DNA of 64,000 bases from Micromonospora sp. FIMYZ51. Its GTDB lineage: Bacteria > Actinomycetota > Actinomycetes > Mycobacteriales > Micromonosporaceae. Of the stretch, positions 48,408 through 54,847 are shown piece after piece; position 1 is the stretch's first letter; each line of letters opens with the position of its first letter. The stretch is taken from the NCBI RefSeq assembly GCF_038246755.1, contig NZ_CP134706.1, positions 4,216,001-4,280,000 of the forward strand, in the 5' to 3' direction. The notes beneath the pieces were generated by a model. It ran no database searches, had not been told where the DNA came from, and saw only the letters and a program-made list of their open reading frames with translations. Both the position numbers and the translations under genes were made by a program.

Positions 48408-49538
48408 GTGCCCGCTCTGCTGCGCTCCGTGTGGGACGAGCCGCGCCCGGCCGGCGCGCCCCGCCGCGGTTGGCGGGACTGGCTGCTGCTCGGCCTGCTC
48501 GTGCCGGCCGCGCTGCTCGAAGGGCTGCTCCGGCCGGAGCTTGCCTGGCGGAGCGGCACGGTGATCGTGACGGTGGCGCTGATCCCGACGCTGCTGTGGC
48601 GACGGACCCACCCGCTGCTGATGGTGGCGCTCGCCTTCGGGCTGCTCGGGCTGTTGCCGCTGCTGACCGGCCCGGAGGTTACCGACCTGGCCGCCGGGGC
48701 GTTCGTCCTGCTGCTGGCGTACGCGCTGTTCCGCTGGGGATCCGGGCGTGAGGCGCTGCTCGGTACGGCGATCATCGTGGGCAAGGTGTGCCTCGGCGCC
48801 GCGATCGGGCAACTCGGGCTCGCCGACCTGGTCGGCGGCTTCGTCGTCCTCTTCGCGGTACTGGCCGCAGGGGCCGCGCTGCGCTACCGGACCGGTGCCC
48901 GGCAGCGCGAACTCGACGCGGCCAAGCTGCTCGAACGGGAACGGCTGGCCCGCGACCTGCACGACACCGTCGCCCACCACATCTCGGCCGTGGCGGTCCG
49001 CGCCCAGGCCGGGCTCGCGGTCGCGGCGACCCGCCCGCAGGCGGCCACCGAGGCACTGCGGCTGATCGAGGTCGAGGCGTCCCGGGCGCTCGCCGAGATG
49101 CGTGGCCTGGTCCGGGTGCTGCGCGACGGCACGCCACCGGAGCTGACGCCGACTCCGCAGGTGTCGGATCTGGCCCGCCTCGCCGAAGGTGCACCGGCCG
49201 AGCCTGCCGTGCACGTGGAGATCGTCGGTGACTCCGCAGCCCTTGATCCGGCGGTCGGCAGCACGGTCTACCGGCTGGCCCAGGAGTCGGTGACAAACGC
49301 CCGCCGGCACGCCCGGCACGCGACCCGCATCCAGGTCCGCGTGCAGGTCGACGAGCGCACGGTACGGCTCCAGGTGACCGACGACGGCGAAGCCGCCGGC
49401 CGATCCGGCGGCTCCTCGGGGTACGGGCTGGTCGGCATGACCGAACGGGCCGGCCTGCTCGGCGGCACCTGCGAGGCCGGTCCCGGCCCGGAGCGGGGCT
49501 GGCTGGTCGTCGCGGTACTGCCCCGGACGGCGGCGTGA
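48408..49538 (+). CDS. NarL-type sensor histidine kinase
   Basis: The 376-residue kinase has about five N-terminal helices with almost no loops (1-165), a HisKA_3 segment with ERLARDLHDTVAHHISAV, and a HATPase domain (QESVTNARRHARHA, GYGLVGMTERAGLLGG). Sensing should be within the membrane. GTG 48408 is the start; the stop overlaps the regulator start. It follows the three unknown membrane proteins by 60 bases. Confidence 0.93.
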   Translation: MPALLRSVWDEPRPAGAPRRGWRDWLLLGLLVPAALLEGLLRPELAWRSGTVIVTVALIPTLLWRRTHPLLMVALAFGLLGLLPLLTGPEVTDLAAGAFVLLLAYALFRWGSGREALLGTAIIVGKVCLGAAIGQLGLADLVGGFVVLFAVLAAGAALRYRTGARQRELDAAKLLERERLARDLHDTVAHHISAVAVRAQAGLAVAATRPQAATEALRLIEVEASRALAEMRGLVRVLRDGTPPELTPTPQVSDLARLAEGAPAEPAVHVEIVGDSAALDPAVGSTVYRLAQESVTNARRHARHATRIQVRVQVDERTVRLQVTDDGEAAGRSGGSSGYGLVGMTERAGLLGGTCEAGPGPERGWLVVAVLPRTAA

Positions 49539-50245
49539 CCGGCCCGCCGCCCGGCGCACCGGTGCCCGCCGGTGAGCGGCCGATCCGGGTGGTCGTCGCG
49601 GACGACCAGGAGATCGTCCGGACCGGGCTGGCGATGATTCTCGACGCCCAGCCCGGCATCGAGGTCGTCGGCCAGGCAGCCGACGGTAGGCAGGCGGTCG
49701 AGCTGGCCCGGCGGTTGCGCCCGGACGTGTGCCTGTTCGACATCAGGATGCCCGGCGTCGACGGCATCGAGGCCACCCGCCAGCTCGCCGGACCGGCGGT
49801 GGCCGAACCGCTCGCGGTCGTCGTCATCACCACCTTCGACCTCGACGAGTACGTCTACGCGGCGCTGCGCGCCGGTGCCCGTGGTTTCCTCCTCAAGGAC
49901 GCCGGCTCGGCCCTGCTGGCCCAGGCGGTGCATGCCGCCGCCAACGGCGATGCGCTGATCGCCCCCAGCGTGACCACCCGGCTGTTGACTGCCTTCGCCG
50001 ACAGTGGACCGACCACACCGCCGCCGCAGCCGGTCGATCCGCTCACCGACCGCGAGGAGCAGGTGCTCACCGCCGTGGCCCGGGGACGAACCAACAGCGA
50101 GATCGCCGACGAGTTCCACATCAGCCTCAGCACCGTGAAAAGCCACCTCGCCAGCCTGATGGCCAAACTCGGGGCCCGGAACCGGGTCGAGATCGCGATC
50201 TGGGCGTACGAGACGCGCCGGGTGTCTGGCGGTGGCCGGCGCTGA
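49535..50245 (+). CDS. NarL/LuxR-family response regulator
   Basis: The 236-residue regulator has a receiver domain with DDQE, phospho-acceptor Asp about 69 in VCLFDIRMPG and Lys in FLLKDAG, then a LuxR HTH (LTDREEQVLTAVARGRTNSEIADEFHISLSTVKSHLASLMAKLGARNR in outline). GTG 49535 overlaps the kinase stop. Targets are unknown; the divergent or adjacent membrane-protein genes are candidates. Confidence 0.95.
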   Translation: MTGPPPGAPVPAGERPIRVVVADDQEIVRTGLAMILDAQPGIEVVGQAADGRQAVELARRLRPDVCLFDIRMPGVDGIEATRQLAGPAVAEPLAVVVITTFDLDEYVYAALRAGARGFLLKDAGSALLAQAVHAAANGDALIAPSVTTRLLTAFADSGPTTPPPQPVDPLTDREEQVLTAVARGRTNSEIADEFHISLSTVKSHLASLMAKLGARNRVEIAIWAYETRRVSGGGRR

Positions 50246-50344
50246 CGTCGGACTTTGGTACGACGACGTCCTCGCACCATCGGCCGGGACGGCCGGAGCC
50301 TGCGCGCCGATGAGTTCAGGCCGCCGGGATCGCACGATCGGGGT

Positions 50345-51034
50345 ATGTCCGCGAAGCGTCTCGGTCGCCGGGAGTGGCTGATCCCCGCCGGCCTGATCCT
50401 GCTCAGTCTCGTACCGGTGGTCGCCGGTGCCGTCCGCGTCGTCCAACTCTCGGTCGGCGTCGCGGTGACGCCGGAGAACGCCCGGTTCGTCGGTGACCCG
50501 GCACCGGTCGTCGTGCACATCGTCGCCGCGACCCTGTACTGCCTGCTCGGCGCGTTCCAGTTCGTCCCCAGCCTGCGCCGTCGGCATCCACGCTGGCACC
50601 GGGTCGCCGGGCGGCTGCTGGTCCCGGCCGGCATCGCCGCCGCCCTTGCCGGGGTGTGGATGGCCCTGTTCTACCCGCTGCTGCCGATCGACGGTGCGCT
50701 GCTCATCGGGCTGCGGGTGAGCTTCGGCGCCGCGATGGCGGTGAGCATCGTGCTCGGCTTCGTCGCGATCCTGCGGCGTGACCTCGTCCGGCACCGCGCC
50801 TGGATGATCCGGGGGTACGCCATCGGCCAGGGCGCCGGCACCCAGTTCCTGACCCACCTACCGTGGCTGCTGGTGATCGGCCCGCCGAGCGAGCTGACCC
50901 GGGCGCTGTTGCACGCCGCCGGCTGGCTGATCAACATCGCGGTCGCCGAATGGATCATCCACCGCAGCACCGCTCGCCGGACGCCCGTGCCGCCGCGTCG
51001 CTCGCAGCCGGTCGTCCACGCCGCACCGCAGTGA
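50345..51034 (+). CDS. DUF2306 integral membrane protein
   Basis: The 229-residue protein has six to seven helices and His residues positioned as in DUF2306: VVVHIVAATLYCLLGAFQF, RRHPRWHRVAGRLLVPAG, VRHRAWMIRGYAIGQGAGTQ. The conserved His pattern suggests heme or metal binding as in related cytochrome b561-like folds, which is not proven. ATG 50345 is chosen to begin just before the first helix. Confidence 0.82.
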   Translation: MSAKRLGRREWLIPAGLILLSLVPVVAGAVRVVQLSVGVAVTPENARFVGDPAPVVVHIVAATLYCLLGAFQFVPSLRRRHPRWHRVAGRLLVPAGIAAALAGVWMALFYPLLPIDGALLIGLRVSFGAAMAVSIVLGFVAILRRDLVRHRAWMIRGYAIGQGAGTQFLTHLPWLLVIGPPSELTRALLHAAGWLINIAVAEWIIHRSTARRTPVPPRRSQPVVHAAPQ

Positions 51035-51092
51035 CGGAAGCTAGGCAACGCCATATGCTGCCGACGTCATCGAGCCACAGATGGGAGCCACG

Positions 51093-51149
51093 ATGCGCCT
51101 CGACATGGTGACGGTCCCCGCTTCGCCGCGAGAGCACGCCGGGCGCTGA
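51093..51149 (+). CDS. 18-residue leader peptide ORF before the MFS gene
   Basis: ATG 51093 is five bases after GGGAG (51083-51087) and opens MRLDMVTVPASPREHAGR followed by TGA. It ends nine bases before a hairpin, and 94 bases before the start of the exporter gene. Short size, good ribosome site and downstream mutually positioned stems fit a regulatory leader, not a functional protein. Confidence 0.55.
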   Translation: MRLDMVTVPASPREHAGR

Positions 51150-51157
51150 CCGGTCCG

Positions 51158-51176
51158 CCGCCGGGCCTACCGGCGG
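51158..51176 (+). promoter_or_regulatory. Leader hairpin after the short ORF
   Basis: Perfect seven-base stem CCGCCGG/CCGGCGG with a five-base loop, nine bases after the leader stop codon. It is the first of two stems between leader and exporter gene. Confidence 0.6.
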
Positions 51177-51181
51177 TGCGC

Positions 51182-51239
51182 TGCTCCTCGCCGCGAAGCG
51201 GTCCGGTGTCGACCGTTTCCCTTCCTGGCTCGAGGAGCA
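51182..51239 (+). promoter_or_regulatory. Stem sequestering the exporter ribosome binding site
   Basis: TGCTCCTCG (51182-51190) is the exact complement of CGAGGAGCA (51231-51239), which contains the GAGGAG ribosome site of the exporter five bases before its TTG start. A four-base CCGC-GAA-GCGG hairpin sits in the loop. Folding would hide the start region. A partly complementary CGAGAGCA lies inside the leader ORF (51129-51136) and could compete for the same strand. Confidence 0.65.
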
Positions 51240-51242
51240 TTC

Positions 51243-52460
51243 TTGCCTGCCCTGTCATCCGCGCGTCTCGGCGCGGACTTCACCAGACTGTGGGCCGCTT
51301 CGGCGGTCTCCAACATCGGCGACGGAGTCACCATGGCGGCCGGTCCGCTGCTGGTGGCCGCCGTCAGCGACGACCCGGCCCTGATCGCCGGTGCGGTCTT
51401 CGCCCAGCAACTGCCCTGGCTGCTGTTCGCCCTGGTCAGTGGCGTCTACGTGGACCGGCTCGACCGGCGTCGGCTGGTCGTGGCGGTCAACCTGCTGCGG
51501 GCCGCCGCCCTCGCTGCGCTGGCCCTGACCGTCGCCACCGGCACCGTCACCGTGGCGGTGATCTACGCGGTGGTCTTCCTGCTCGGCACCGGGGAGACCC
51601 TCGCCGACACCGCGCTGGGCGCCCTGCTGCCGTCAGTGGTCACCGCCGACCGGCTACCCGCCGCCAACGCGCGCCTGGCCGCCACCTTCACCATCGGCAA
51701 CCAGTTCGCCGCCAAACCGCTCGGGGCCTGGCTGTTCGTCATCTCCGCCGCCGTGCCGTTCGGCCTCAACGCGCTGACCTTCGCCGTCTCGGCGGCGTTT
51801 ATCGCAACCCTGCGGCCGGCGCAGGCTGAGCCGATCAGGCCCGCGCACGTCCCGCCGGTGGGGTCGCTGCGCGGCGACATCGCCGAGGGCATGCGGTGGC
51901 TCTGGCGACACCGCCTGCTGCGGACCCTGGCCGTGAGCATGGGCCTGGCCAACGTCGCCTTCTGCGCGGCGTTCGCCGTGTTCGTGCTCTACTGCCGGCA
52001 GCGACTCGGTCTGTCCGATCTCGGGTACGGCTTCCTGCTGACCACCTTCGCGGTCGGCGGCCTGGCCGGCACCACGGTCGCGGCCCGGCTCGGGCGGACG
52101 TTCGGCAATCCGATGGTGCTGCGGACCGGCCTGCTGATCGAGGTGGCCACCCATCTGGTTCTGGCGGTCACGACGACGCCCTGGGTGGCGGCGACCGCCA
52201 TCGTCCTGTTCAGCCTGCACGGCATGGTCTGGGGCATCACCGTCGCGTCGATCCGGCAGCGACTGGTGCCCGATGCACTGCGCGGCCGGGTGGGCAGCAC
52301 GTACGCGCTGCTGGACCTGGGCGGCGCCGCACTCGGTTCCCTGCTCGGTGGCCTGCTCGCCAGCGCCGGGACGGTCACCACGCCGTTCTGGATCGCCGCC
52401 GCGACGGTGGCGGTCGTCGCCGCCCTCGCCTGGCGTCCGCTCGGCGAAGCAGCCAGGTAA
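51243..52460 (+). CDS. MFS exporter (MFS_3 family)
   Basis: The 405-residue protein has twelve predicted helices in two halves. FTRLWAASAVSNIGDGVTMAAGPLL begins the first; the signature loop DRLDRRRLVVAVNLLRAA links helices 2 and 3. This branch includes macrolide and other drug exporters of actinobacteria. The start is TTG 51243, supported by GAGGAG at 51232-51237 and by absence of a better codon; rare initiation with TTG plus a masked ribosome site suggests tight translational control. The substrate is unknown. Confidence 0.9.
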   Translation: MPALSSARLGADFTRLWAASAVSNIGDGVTMAAGPLLVAAVSDDPALIAGAVFAQQLPWLLFALVSGVYVDRLDRRRLVVAVNLLRAAALAALALTVATGTVTVAVIYAVVFLLGTGETLADTALGALLPSVVTADRLPAANARLAATFTIGNQFAAKPLGAWLFVISAAVPFGLNALTFAVSAAFIATLRPAQAEPIRPAHVPPVGSLRGDIAEGMRWLWRHRLLRTLAVSMGLANVAFCAAFAVFVLYCRQRLGLSDLGYGFLLTTFAVGGLAGTTVAARLGRTFGNPMVLRTGLLIEVATHLVLAVTTTPWVAATAIVLFSLHGMVWGITVASIRQRLVPDALRGRVGSTYALLDLGGAALGSLLGGLLASAGTVTTPFWIAAATVAVVAALAWRPLGEAAR

Positions 52461-52471
52461 TCACCCGAGAC

Positions 52472-52511
52472 CCGGCCCGCGAGCAGGCTCACCCCTCCTC
52501 GCGGGCCGGGC
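52472..52511. terminator. Bidirectional terminator
   Basis: Perfect 13-base arms CCCGGCCCGCGAG and CTCGCGGGCCGGG with a 14-base loop, between the convergent exporter and TIGR02452 genes. Confidence 0.8.
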
Positions 52512-52524
52512 CGCACGGCCCGAA

Positions 52525-53319
52525 TCAGCGCAGCGCATCGGCGAACGCGGCGTACGTCGGGGTGCCGGATTGGCGGTCCAGGACGGCGAACACCACCTCG
52601 TCGAACCAGGGCATGTCGCGCAGGGCGGTGGCGAACGCGGCGGCGACCGTGCCCGGCTCGTTACCGAACACCCCGCAGCCCCAGGCACCCAGGACGAGCC
52701 GACGATGGCCGTGGGCGGCGGCGACCTGAAGGATCCGGGCGGCGCGGCGGGCCAGCACCGCCGGCAGGTCGGGAAGATGCTGCGGCTGGTTGCGGACGAT
52801 CGCGGACCGGTTGGGCGCGGCGGCGGTCAGGAACGACACCGGATACGGCGCCGGCAGCAAACTTCCGCTGTCGTCGCGGAAGACCGGCACGGCCGGCGAG
52901 TAGATCACCCGGTCGCTGTAGGTCAGCTCCGGGTGGCTGCGGTGATGGGTGTAGAAGTCCTCGGCCGCCCGCAGGCAGGGGTAGAGCGCCGACGAGCGGG
53001 CCACGCTCTCCTCCTGGGCCTGGGCACCATTGAGGAAGCCGCCACCGGGGTTGCGCGCCGAGGCGAAGACGAGGCAGGCGAGGTCGCCGCCGAGCCGGCT
53101 GGTCGCCGAGAGGGTCGACTCGTTGGTCACCTCGACCGCCGGCACGGTGTCGGCCGGCGCGGGCGCCGCCAGGGCGTCCGTCGGCAGGTACAACCGGGTA
53201 CCGGCCACCGCCCGCACGACCTCGGCGGCGATGGAAACCTCGCCGTCGGTCGTACGGTAGGCGCCACGCTCGGCGATGGCGACCGTGTCCTCGGCGATGG
53301 CGCGCAATCGGCTACTCAC
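52525..53319 (-). CDS. TIGR02452/DUF2263 family protein (bacterial-type PARG fold)
   Basis: The 264-residue protein has a macrodomain with the poly(ADP-ribose) glycohydrolase signature: NPGGGFLNGAQAQEES, i.e. GGG-x6-QEE with the catalytic Glu pair, and RLVLGAWGCGVFGNEP near the C terminus. Bacterial PARGs of this type hydrolyse ADP-ribose polymers or related ADP-ribosyl groups in the cytoplasm. No ADP-ribosyltransferase is adjacent. It converges on the exporter gene. Confidence 0.9.
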   Translation of the reverse strand: MSSRLRAIAEDTVAIAERGAYRTTDGEVSIAAEVVRAVAGTRLYLPTDALAAPAPADTVPAVEVTNESTLSATSRLGGDLACLVFASARNPGGGFLNGAQAQEESVARSSALYPCLRAAEDFYTHHRSHPELTYSDRVIYSPAVPVFRDDSGSLLPAPYPVSFLTAAAPNRSAIVRNQPQHLPDLPAVLARRAARILQVAAAHGHRRLVLGAWGCGVFGNEPGTVAAAFATALRDMPWFDEVVFAVLDRQSGTPTYAAFADALR

Positions 53320-53431
53320 GACGCGACAGCCTGCCCGACATCCCTGCCGAACCGCGAGCGAAATACCTCCGACACTGTCGCCTGCCTAATACCTGAGCCG
53401 GGGATCGTGGTGACGGCTCGGTGGCATTCCC

Positions 53432-54847
53432 TCAGGTTCGTTCACCACCTCGCCGGCCTGCCGCGTCATTCAGAAAGACCGCAGCCCGCCGATCGAGCTG
53501 CTTCGCGAATACAGGCAGGCGGGAGCCGAAGCTGCCGAGACGGGTTCGGATGTTCCTCACGGCGACCGCCGCTCGGCCGGATCTGACTCCCGCCATCGCA
53601 TCGATGGCATGGTTCCAGTTCTCGGTCGCCTCGTGGAGTCGTCCTTGGGCGCATTGCACATCAGCGAGGTTGGCCAGGGTCAGGCTGTGGATGCGCCGAT
53701 ACGCCTCAGAATTCCGGGTGGCGATCGACCGCCGGAATTGGGCTTCGGCCGCAGGCAGGTCACCGAGATCGCGAAGGGCCTGGCCGGCTTGGCTGGCCAG
53801 GGAGGTCTCAGTGAACCCGCTGGTCCGGATCCAGATCGGCTCGTCGTCGGGCTCGGCGTTTGCGAGGTGAGCCTCGGCCGCCGTTATCGCCGCCGAGGTA
53901 CGCGCCTTGTCGTCCGTCGCTGCGTGACCCCGCGCAGTCAGGACGGTGAAGAGCGCAGTCGCCGCCGGGGTCGCCCTGCCCCTCGACCATTCGAGCGATG
54001 AGGTTGCGAGTCGCAGCGCTTCCTGTCCATGGCCGAGGTCAACGGCCTGGTGTGCCATCGCCCGCAGCGTGAAGCCGGCGAGCGGCCGGTCGTCCGCCTC
54101 GTTCGCCAAACGCAGCGCTTGGACGTAGTACCGCTGGGCCAGCCCGTGTAGCGACGAATCGAAGGCTTTCCAGCCGGCAAGGTAGGTCATCTCGGCCGCG
54201 ACACTGAACATGGCCCTGCGGTCCTGGTCGGAGGAGAAGCGCCCCTGAAGAAAGCCCGCCACGTCGGAGGTTAGGTACTGAACAACAGCGAGGCGAGCAT
54301 GACCACCGCCGAACCGCTCGTCCGCCTTGCTGAACACCGCCAGCATGTCCCGTACGGCGTCGATCTCGCGATGGCCCACGGCGATCCCCCCGCCCCGAGC
54401 CTGCCGCCCCCGGTCCGCGATCTCCTGCCATTGGTCAAGCGGTACGGCCAGCGCTGCCAACGAGTACAGGGCGCTAAGCCCGAACTCTCGTCGCTCCAAG
54501 TCGGCCCTCCCGACTGTCAGGAGATCGGTGACAGGTGCATGCTCCCACCAATCCAGGCCGCCAAGGTCGGGCTCCAGATTACCGCCTTCGAGTAGGCCGA
54601 GATCGATCGGATTCATCACCCGGCCGAGTCTGCGAGAGATCGCTTCGGCCAGGAATCGGCAGGTCCTGCCATGGGGCTTCACTCCGGCGACCCAGTGTCC
54701 GATGTGGGACCGGTCGCAGGACGAAAGATCGTCCCCATTCTCACGAGCGACCACTCGAAGGGCTGCGGCACAAGCCTCGTACGACCACCGACAGTCTCTG
54801 ATGGCTGCCAGCAACTTCTCGTTGCGCTGCCTGGGTGCCCGCGCCAT
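53432..54847 (-). CDS. HTH-TPR regulator, NsdA-like
   Basis: The 471-residue protein begins with a helix-turn-helix-like region (NEKLLAAIRDCRWSYEACAAALRVVARENG then SHIGHWVAGVKPHGRTCRFLAEAISRRLG), then a spacer and about seven TPR-type helical repeats (LAGFTLRAMAHQAVDLGHGQEALRLATSSLEWSRG, AAEAQFRRSIATRNSEAYRRIHSLTLANLADVQCAQGRLHEATENWNHAIDAM). The layout recalls Streptomyces TPR regulators of development such as NsdA, without certainty. Start ATG 54847 follows GAGGGAAGG. It is divergent from another TPR regulator. Codon third positions are slightly less GC-biased than in neighbours. Confidence 0.82.
   Translation of the reverse strand: MARAPRQRNEKLLAAIRDCRWSYEACAAALRVVARENGDDLSSCDRSHIGHWVAGVKPHGRTCRFLAEAISRRLGRVMNPIDLGLLEGGNLEPDLGGLDWWEHAPVTDLLTVGRADLERREFGLSALYSLAALAVPLDQWQEIADRGRQARGGGIAVGHREIDAVRDMLAVFSKADERFGGGHARLAVVQYLTSDVAGFLQGRFSSDQDRRAMFSVAAEMTYLAGWKAFDSSLHGLAQRYYVQALRLANEADDRPLAGFTLRAMAHQAVDLGHGQEALRLATSSLEWSRGRATPAATALFTVLTARGHAATDDKARTSAAITAAEAHLANAEPDDEPIWIRTSGFTETSLASQAGQALRDLGDLPAAEAQFRRSIATRNSEAYRRIHSLTLANLADVQCAQGRLHEATENWNHAIDAMAGVRSGRAAVAVRNIRTRLGSFGSRLPVFAKQLDRRAAVFLNDAAGRRGGERT

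Follow-up and report, generated by a model that had tools for sequence, protein, structure and literature searches.

The window, a stretch of 64,000 nucleotides from the 7.05 Mb, single-contig genome of Micromonospora sp. FIMYZ51, carries a gene for an MFS exporter of 405 residues, which starts with TTG at position 51243, as the initial annotation had read. The protein belongs to the MFS_3 family (PF05977), whose model it matches with 119 bits against a gathering cut-off of 27. All 12 of its NCBIfam matches, drug pumps included, fall under the models' own cut-offs; these models include EntS, Tap, Tet(V), Mef(A) and Cmx, and the Mef(A) model, with 32 bits against a cut-off of 675, indicates a weak protein relation. 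Among the best 120 of 1639 relatives, the names are general (e.g., MFS transporter) and give no specific function, and a single-sequence search found no relative of solved structure. Upstream, on the same strand, lie sensor kinase-like and response-regulator-like genes (48408-50245), named by reading their translations, with a DUF2306 gene between this pair and the exporter. The convergent neighbour on the reverse strand (52525-53319) encodes a microbial PARG-type protein (TIGR02452 / PF10021).

The region directly upstream of the exporter contains a short leader open reading frame (ORF) and a series of RNA strands with alternative partners, one of which is the Shine-Dalgarno (SD) block of the exporter:

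51031..51059, forward strand: likely promoter candidate, with GTGACG (51031-51036), a 17-nt spacer and TATGCT (51054-51059)
51083..51087, forward strand: leader ribosome-binding site GGGAG, read from the sequence, with a similar purine-rich block in relatives
51093..51149, forward strand: leader ORF MRLDMVTVPASPREHAGR, 18 codons, ATG at 51093, stop TGA, read from the sequence
51110..51116, forward strand: strand 1a, GACGGTC, codons 6-8, able to pair with 51211-51217 (88.6% of cells paired)
51119..51137, forward strand: strand 1, CGCTTCGCCGCGAGAGCAC, an SD mimic that pairs with strand 2 (90.7% of cells paired, covariation)
51158..51176, forward strand: local 7-bp hairpin between leader and strand 2, with pairing checked letter by letter
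51182..51203, forward strand: strand 2, TGCTCCTCGCCGCGAAGCGGTC, anti-SD, with strand 1 or strands 3 and 4 as alternative partners
51211..51219, forward strand: strand 4, GACCGTTTC, hairpin with 51195-51203 (96.7% of cells paired, double changes in 3 pairs)
51231..51239, forward strand: strand 3, exporter SD block CGAGGAGCA, pairing with 51182-51190 (96.9% of cells paired, found de novo by RNAalifold)
51243..52460, forward strand: MFS exporter, 405 aa, TTG start, MFS_3 (PF05977)

Letter by letter, the sequence bears out the elements first proposed for this region, namely the 18-codon leader ORF with its own ribosome site, a perfect seven-base hairpin (51158-51164 with 51170-51176) and a perfect nine-base stem (51182-51190 with 51231-51239) covering the GAGGAG of the exporter at 51232-51237. 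The leader segment 51129-51136 (CGAGAGCA), named as a competitor, is complementary to the same strand as the SD, with one bulge, and the competing segment proved longer than first stated: 51119-51136 can pair with 51182-51200 in 17 pairs, with one mismatch and one bulge. Within the masking stem, strand 2 pairs a second time: 51195-51203 and 51211-51219 make up a 9-bp hairpin. The earlier reading is corrected in one respect: the seven-base hairpin is not essential to the layout, because it is missing from the shorter leaders of the family, while a comparable local hairpin occurs in many longer ones.

The computed minimal states of the window with strands 1:2 paired and with strands 2:3 and 2:4 paired have energies of -42.2 and -42.4 kcal/mol, respectively, and adding 1a:4 to the 1:2 state gives -48.8 kcal/mol. 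The leader of the window folds with a z-score of -2.65, and 0 of 200 shuffles fold as well; a perfect match of at least nine bases to the SD block occurred in 22 of 5000 mononucleotide shuffles of 51093-51230. A chance origin of the layout was rejected on these shuffles and on its conservation in relatives, the latter being the decisive evidence. In the minimum-energy fold of the window, the leader start (ATGCGCCTCG) pairs with the SD of the exporter; this pairing was set aside because leaders starting with MQHTS, MRTHE and similar do not have it.

Homologues of the exporter were collected in three ways. Named genomes, searched by translated comparison, provided 36 loci, of which 33 were used (L042 was a partial match, and L043 and L044 showed 31-32% identity); 250 Micromonosporaceae genomes yielded 62 exporters at E 1e-100 or better; and a class-wide draw of 394 genomes yielded 6, three of them outside the family (L076 in the same order, L074 and L077 in the same class). 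Once duplicates were removed, 84 distinct upstream regions remained, 63 with a leader of the window's type (type I), 10 with a second type (type II) and 11 with neither (L033-L038, L041, L076, L077, L104 and L108). L036-L038 belong to distant exporter relatives with 41-44% identity. A related leader precedes 59 of the 62 Micromonosporaceae exporters (49 type I and 10 type II, with 3 having neither), and it is also found in loci named Actinomadura, Actinoallomurus, Nocardia and Acrocarpospora. Leaders were recognised by an open frame, a ribosome site and a loose residue pattern together with reading, so that the open frame is in part a selection criterion. Since dozens of related species share the layout, the conserved leader is probably a genuine regulator.

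A promoter-like element also recurs in the family. Of the 63 type I loci, 57 have the motif TANNNT between -55 and -33 relative to the leader ATG, whereas mononucleotide shuffles give 8.4 ± 2.8. The -35 element in the window is considered weak because a sigma-70 scan of its leader region found no site at threshold. From TATGCT at 51054-51059, the mRNA is predicted to start near 51066, well before 51190; a start downstream of 51190, which the initial annotation had named as evidence against its reading, is thus not indicated.

Within the leader peptide, conservation is uneven. Across 62 of the 63 type I leaders (L090, one codon shorter, was omitted), T7 is kept in 55, V8 in 54, A10 in 53, V6 in 46 and S11 in 43, and R13 is kept in 48 of the 58 type I leaders that are long enough to reach residue 13. 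Free variation of the leader codons, frameshifts included, had been proposed as a sign against the regulatory reading. Length changes within codons 1-11 come only in multiples of three in the 61 of 63 type I leaders that were aligned, although the leaders had been picked as open frames to begin with; codons 2-5 do vary freely, with much less variation at codons 6-8 and 10-11. Counts of synonymous and non-synonymous changes carry little information, since nearly all third positions are G or C. The wide variation of residues 2-5 speaks against a strict drug-specific arrest peptide, and a drug-specific peptide motif was accordingly not established. T7-V8 persist in four short leaders without strand 4 (L017, L025, L066 and L067), which are close relatives, and type II leaders carry GTV or GTM; these residues hint at a role of peptide or codons beyond RNA pairing. 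In four other leaders (L020, L091, L096 and L103), a TAG stop stands at codon 12 and the GCGAG core of strand 1 is kept as non-coding RNA, which means that codons 12-18 can matter there only as RNA.

Compensatory changes in the two alternative pairings were examined in an alignment of 49 of the 63 type I leaders. The other 14 (L017, L024, L025, L030, L031, L032, L066, L067, L070, L074, L078, L081, L082 and L091) were left out for a missing strand, a long insertion or poor alignment, and their omission favours the pair counts. Unguided, RNAalifold finds 2:3 and 2:4 in this alignment and closes the SD. For these two stems, 96.8% of cells are paired, against 42-57% in slid versions, with a covariation score of 0.129 (shuffles 0.111 ± 0.006, slid at most 0.082) and 9 double-change cells (shuffles 2.9 ± 1.3, slid at most 6); stem 2:3 has almost no covariation because the SD and its complement hardly vary. 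The 18 pairs of strands 1:2 are paired in 90.7% of cells, against 37-59% in slid versions, and score 0.198 (shuffles 0.137 ± 0.009, slid at most 0.102). Their 36 double-change cells exceed the 16.3 ± 3.1 of shuffles, but the count does not distinguish 1:2, since two slid controls reach 33 and 34. Pairing of 1a with 4, seen in 88.6% of cells, was not retained, its covariation being weak (4 double-change cells against 0.6 in shuffles and up to 3 in slid versions). Examples of the pairs found are:

columns 46 and 139: UA 26, CG 13, UG 4
columns 50 and 135: CG 27, AU 8
columns 45 and 140: CG 45, UA 2
columns 142 and 161: GC 47, AU 2

A quick tree was made from 62 of the 63 type I exporters, the L040 sequence being too short; on it, columns show 1-6 independent changes. 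Wherever both sides of a pair differ on the tree, the change goes in the pairing-preserving direction and never the other way, and the events are too few for a sign test to be able to reach significance. The compensatory changes looked for in relatives thus exist, whereas independent events are few and significance was not reached, and the covariation of 1:2 and of 2:3/2:4 is taken as supportive, not conclusive. The sequences and their computed folds agree on alternative RNA structures, one of which masks the ribosome site of the gene.

A covariance model built on type I leaders only finds one significant place in the window's own genome, the leader itself (E 1e-36). The next match (L110, E 0.045) was looked at and taken as chance. 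In 81 Micromonosporaceae genomes, scanned with stricter filters, the model matched 24 genomes at E 0.01 or better, with 26 matches, 14 of them below 1e-10. Nine of these strong matches precede full-length exporters, three precede truncated remnants (L118, L122 and L136), and for two (L121 and L123) no exporter was found in the available flanking stretch. These last five are extra leader copies in relatives, apparently decayed copies of the cassette. No exporter was found by tblastn beside any of the twelve weaker matches (E 1.8e-5 to 0.01), six of which (L125-L130) had their sequence and ORFs inspected. Apart from L121 and L123, no use of the leader for another gene was seen among the matches of the model, and both scans would miss type II and short leaders, given the type I model and, in the 81 genomes, the stricter filters. 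As far as these matches go, the leader appears to travel and decay with the exporter.

The effect of a ribosome on the leader was computed by folding the 63 leaders with a ribosome footprint on each codon and reading out the probability that the SD is unpaired. The median is 0.10-0.23 with the ribosome on codons 1-7, 0.01-0.02 on codons 8-15 and 0.18 with no ribosome, and the mean (n=63) is 0.21 on codons 4-7 and 0.05 on codons 9-12. Early positions (4-7) give higher accessibility than late ones (9-12) in 54 of the 63 leaders, in 39 of them more than five-fold, and in computation the position of the ribosome therefore changes SD accessibility. Nine leaders show no switch (L009, L010, L016, L024, L039, L053, L057, L078 and L081), one of which, L009, has the exporter of highest identity to that of the window among the loci from the named-genome search. 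With footprint edges at +11, +13 and +15, the drop in accessibility still falls between codons 7 and 10.

Shuffling strand 1 in 62 of the 63 leaders (the Nocardia locus was omitted) gave an accessibility of 0.046 early and 0.056 late, against 0.212 and 0.046 in the wild type, and the wild-type early value was above the shuffled one in 58 of 62. A first control used 20 leaders chosen by hand, with none of the nine exceptions included; early and late values were 0.308 and 0.023 for the wild type, 0.047 and 0.034 with strand 1 shuffled, and 0.267 and 0.275 with the whole interior shuffled. From these controls it follows that, in the computation, strand 2 makes the SD mask and strand 1 lifts it. 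The computed SD accessibility of the ON state is only about 0.2-0.3. The type I fold is partly open (mean 0.24) when no ribosome occupies the leader, so that the OFF state would depend on leader translation and kinetics.

Type II leaders (L075, L083, L087, L093, L095, L097, L098, L099, L105 and L107) are characterised by LGT(V/M) and a longer spacer. The strand corresponding to the mask covers the SD of another, small ORF (VFP... or LFP...). In 9 of the 10, all but L099, the stop of this ORF shares bases (ATGA) with an ATG that lies in the exporter's reading frame. Two builds can therefore be proposed from the sequences, type I apparently masking the exporter SD directly and type II that of a small relay ORF. 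Without a ribosome, eight type II leaders have an SD that is closed or nearly so (0.00-0.02), and the other two give 0.17. Five type II leaders (L075, L087, L095, L097 and L099) clearly open early and close late in the computation, L083 and L105 do so more weakly, and L093, L098 and L107 show this pattern slightly or not at all; in some type II members the switch logic is kept, with a different SD at its centre. In L098, the leader is directly preceded by a perfect 54-base palindrome, located 327-381 bases before the exporter match.

Other layouts occur among the regions with neither leader type. Upstream of the exporter in L035 (Asanoa) stands a 12-codon ORF (MTNAFLGTAPAA), a candidate third leader type, whose codons TTCCTCGG look complementary by eye to the exporter SD CCGAGGAG; pairing of leader codons straight with the SD would be a possible two-strand version. 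L033, L034 and L041 (Actinosynnema, Kibdelosporangium) carry a GAAGCGGTC-type hairpin strand before the exporter orthologue, with no recognised leader peptide upstream of it, and in L034 GGAGGCCG is followed by ATGTAG, a start-stop pair.

The arrangement is probably a ribosome-operated translational attenuator of the MFS exporter. Strand 2 would have two mutually exclusive partners, the downstream SD region or the SD-like segment of the leader: paired with strands 3 and 4 it would keep the exporter OFF, and paired with strand 1, which lies inside leader codons 9-15, it would leave it ON. Ribosomes running through the leader would cover strand 1 while strand 2 emerges, letting strand 2 close over the SD. 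If a ribosome were held in roughly the first 7-8 codons, strand 1 would stay uncovered and could take strand 2 as its partner, which would release the SD. That early stalling opens rather than closes the exporter is suggested by the anatomy and the simulation. The leader would thus have to be translated, with stalling as the signal; the most likely cause of an early stall would be a ribosome-targeting antibiotic, which the exporter may then remove. For a drug as the cause, the analogy with known attenuators and the family of the exporter are the only arguments.

Four other explanations seem less likely than translational attenuation because of evidence specific to each. If the 2:4 hairpin (51195-51219) were a terminator and stalling in the leader led to antitermination, as proposed for lmrC, control would be exerted on transcription. 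The hairpin is strongly kept and is followed by a pyrimidine stretch (UUUCCCUU), and transcription attenuation is described for actinobacterial resistance genes in the portions consulted of two reports (PMC8546547, PMC12421871). However, a scan for terminator-like sites of the intrinsic type returned 0 in 50950-51300, there is no U tract, and the intrinsic terminator before the gene that marks the lmrC type was not found. Strand 2 is also complementary to the SD block, RNAalifold closes the SD, and L017, L025, L066 and L067 lack the hairpin yet keep the SD mask, which makes a terminator unlikely. The ligand-binding RNA or thermosensor, in which translation of the leader would have no role, can draw on the conserved alternative structure, but it is scarcely credible given that the open frame and the leader ribosome site are kept, that no aptamer-like conserved core was seen and that Rfam gives no match at the leader even at E 5.

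The free variation of residues 2-5 and the partly open fold of type I leaders without a ribosome would both suit a general sensor of slowed leader translation, in which starvation or failed initiation rather than a drug leaves strand 1 ribosome-free and opens the exporter. Against this improbable alternative stand the absence of any homopolymeric stretch from the leader peptide, the membership of the controlled gene in an exporter family weakly similar to drug-pump models, the eight of ten type II leaders computed to be closed without a ribosome, and the retention of T7-V8 in the four short leaders without strand 4, close relatives though they are. A switch of reverse sign, in which the nascent peptide arrests the ribosome late (codons 9-15) and represses until an inducer relieves the arrest, would accord with the SD being most closed with a ribosome at codons 8-15; it is nevertheless very unlikely, since little late peptide would be left to act, four leaders ending at codon 11 and codons 12-18 being variable.

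The translational attenuator was first likened to those of erm and cat genes. In the erm attenuator, strands 1:2 and 3:4 form the OFF state and 2:3 the ON state, with the SD in strand 4. Such a four-strand scheme is not what is found here, where leader strand and SD compete for one strand. The attenuator interpretation itself was supported, and none of the three checks that could have refuted it, run as far as sequence allows, did so. In erm-type systems such as ermC, the position of a ribosome in the leader decides whether the SD of the downstream gene is masked, as the consulted part of PMC10219788 describes. The leader upstream of the exporter shares with them the short ORF, the RNA switch and the masked downstream SD, and differs in that a single anti-SD strand has either the SD or its mimic within the leader as partner and in that the controlled gene encodes an MFS exporter and not a methyltransferase. 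It may thus be a three-strand variant of ribosome-mediated attenuation, apparently new.

Further parallels come from other systems. In toiL-topAI of E. coli, stalling on an upstream ORF (uORF) unmasks a ribosome site and several classes of ribosome drugs are sensed (PMC12121999); leader stalling would free a ribosome site here as well, but gene, sequence and organism are different. The nearest logic is that of lmrC uORF2 in Streptomyces lincolnensis, also an actinomycete, where loss of the leader start makes expression constitutive and the OFF state needs leader translation (PMC8546547). According to the same source, uORF2 acts via a premature transcription terminator on an ABCF gene, unlike the masking of the SD of an MFS exporter proposed here. 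The mef pumps are MFS proteins, as is the exporter, though the protein relation is weak, and attenuation of the mef(E)/mel macrolide efflux operon of streptococci is transcriptional, unlike here (PMC4335068). The actinobacterial whiB7/wblC uORF, mentioned in PMC12121999 and PMC12421871, is responsive to several ribosome drugs; the gene under its control encodes a transcription factor, and going by a cited title it acts on transcription. The initial annotation knew of no description of this leader with this exporter, and none was found in Rfam 15 or in the portion of the open-licence literature searched. In an Rfam search of 49000-54000, no match fell in the leader region, even at E 5; as for known riboswitches or sRNAs, the search gave five sub-threshold matches only, all outside the leader.

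Micromonosporaceae are rich in antibiotic producers. If the attenuator reading is true, the family would own an inducible exporter system with a testable RNA logic, which would also provide a ready-made reporter for translation inhibitors that stall ribosomes early. The four natural leaders with a codon-12 stop and a kept strand-1 core would separate the role of the peptide from that of the RNA, and the regions upstream of other genes could be screened for the three-strand SD-mimic scheme. On a broader view, which we hold to be possible while leaning slightly against it, the leader may represent an undescribed class of actinobacterial resistance switch, existing in at least two builds, in which a stop within the first 7-8 codons of an SD-mimic leader would unlock the exporter and serve as a broad sensor of early-elongation inhibitors.
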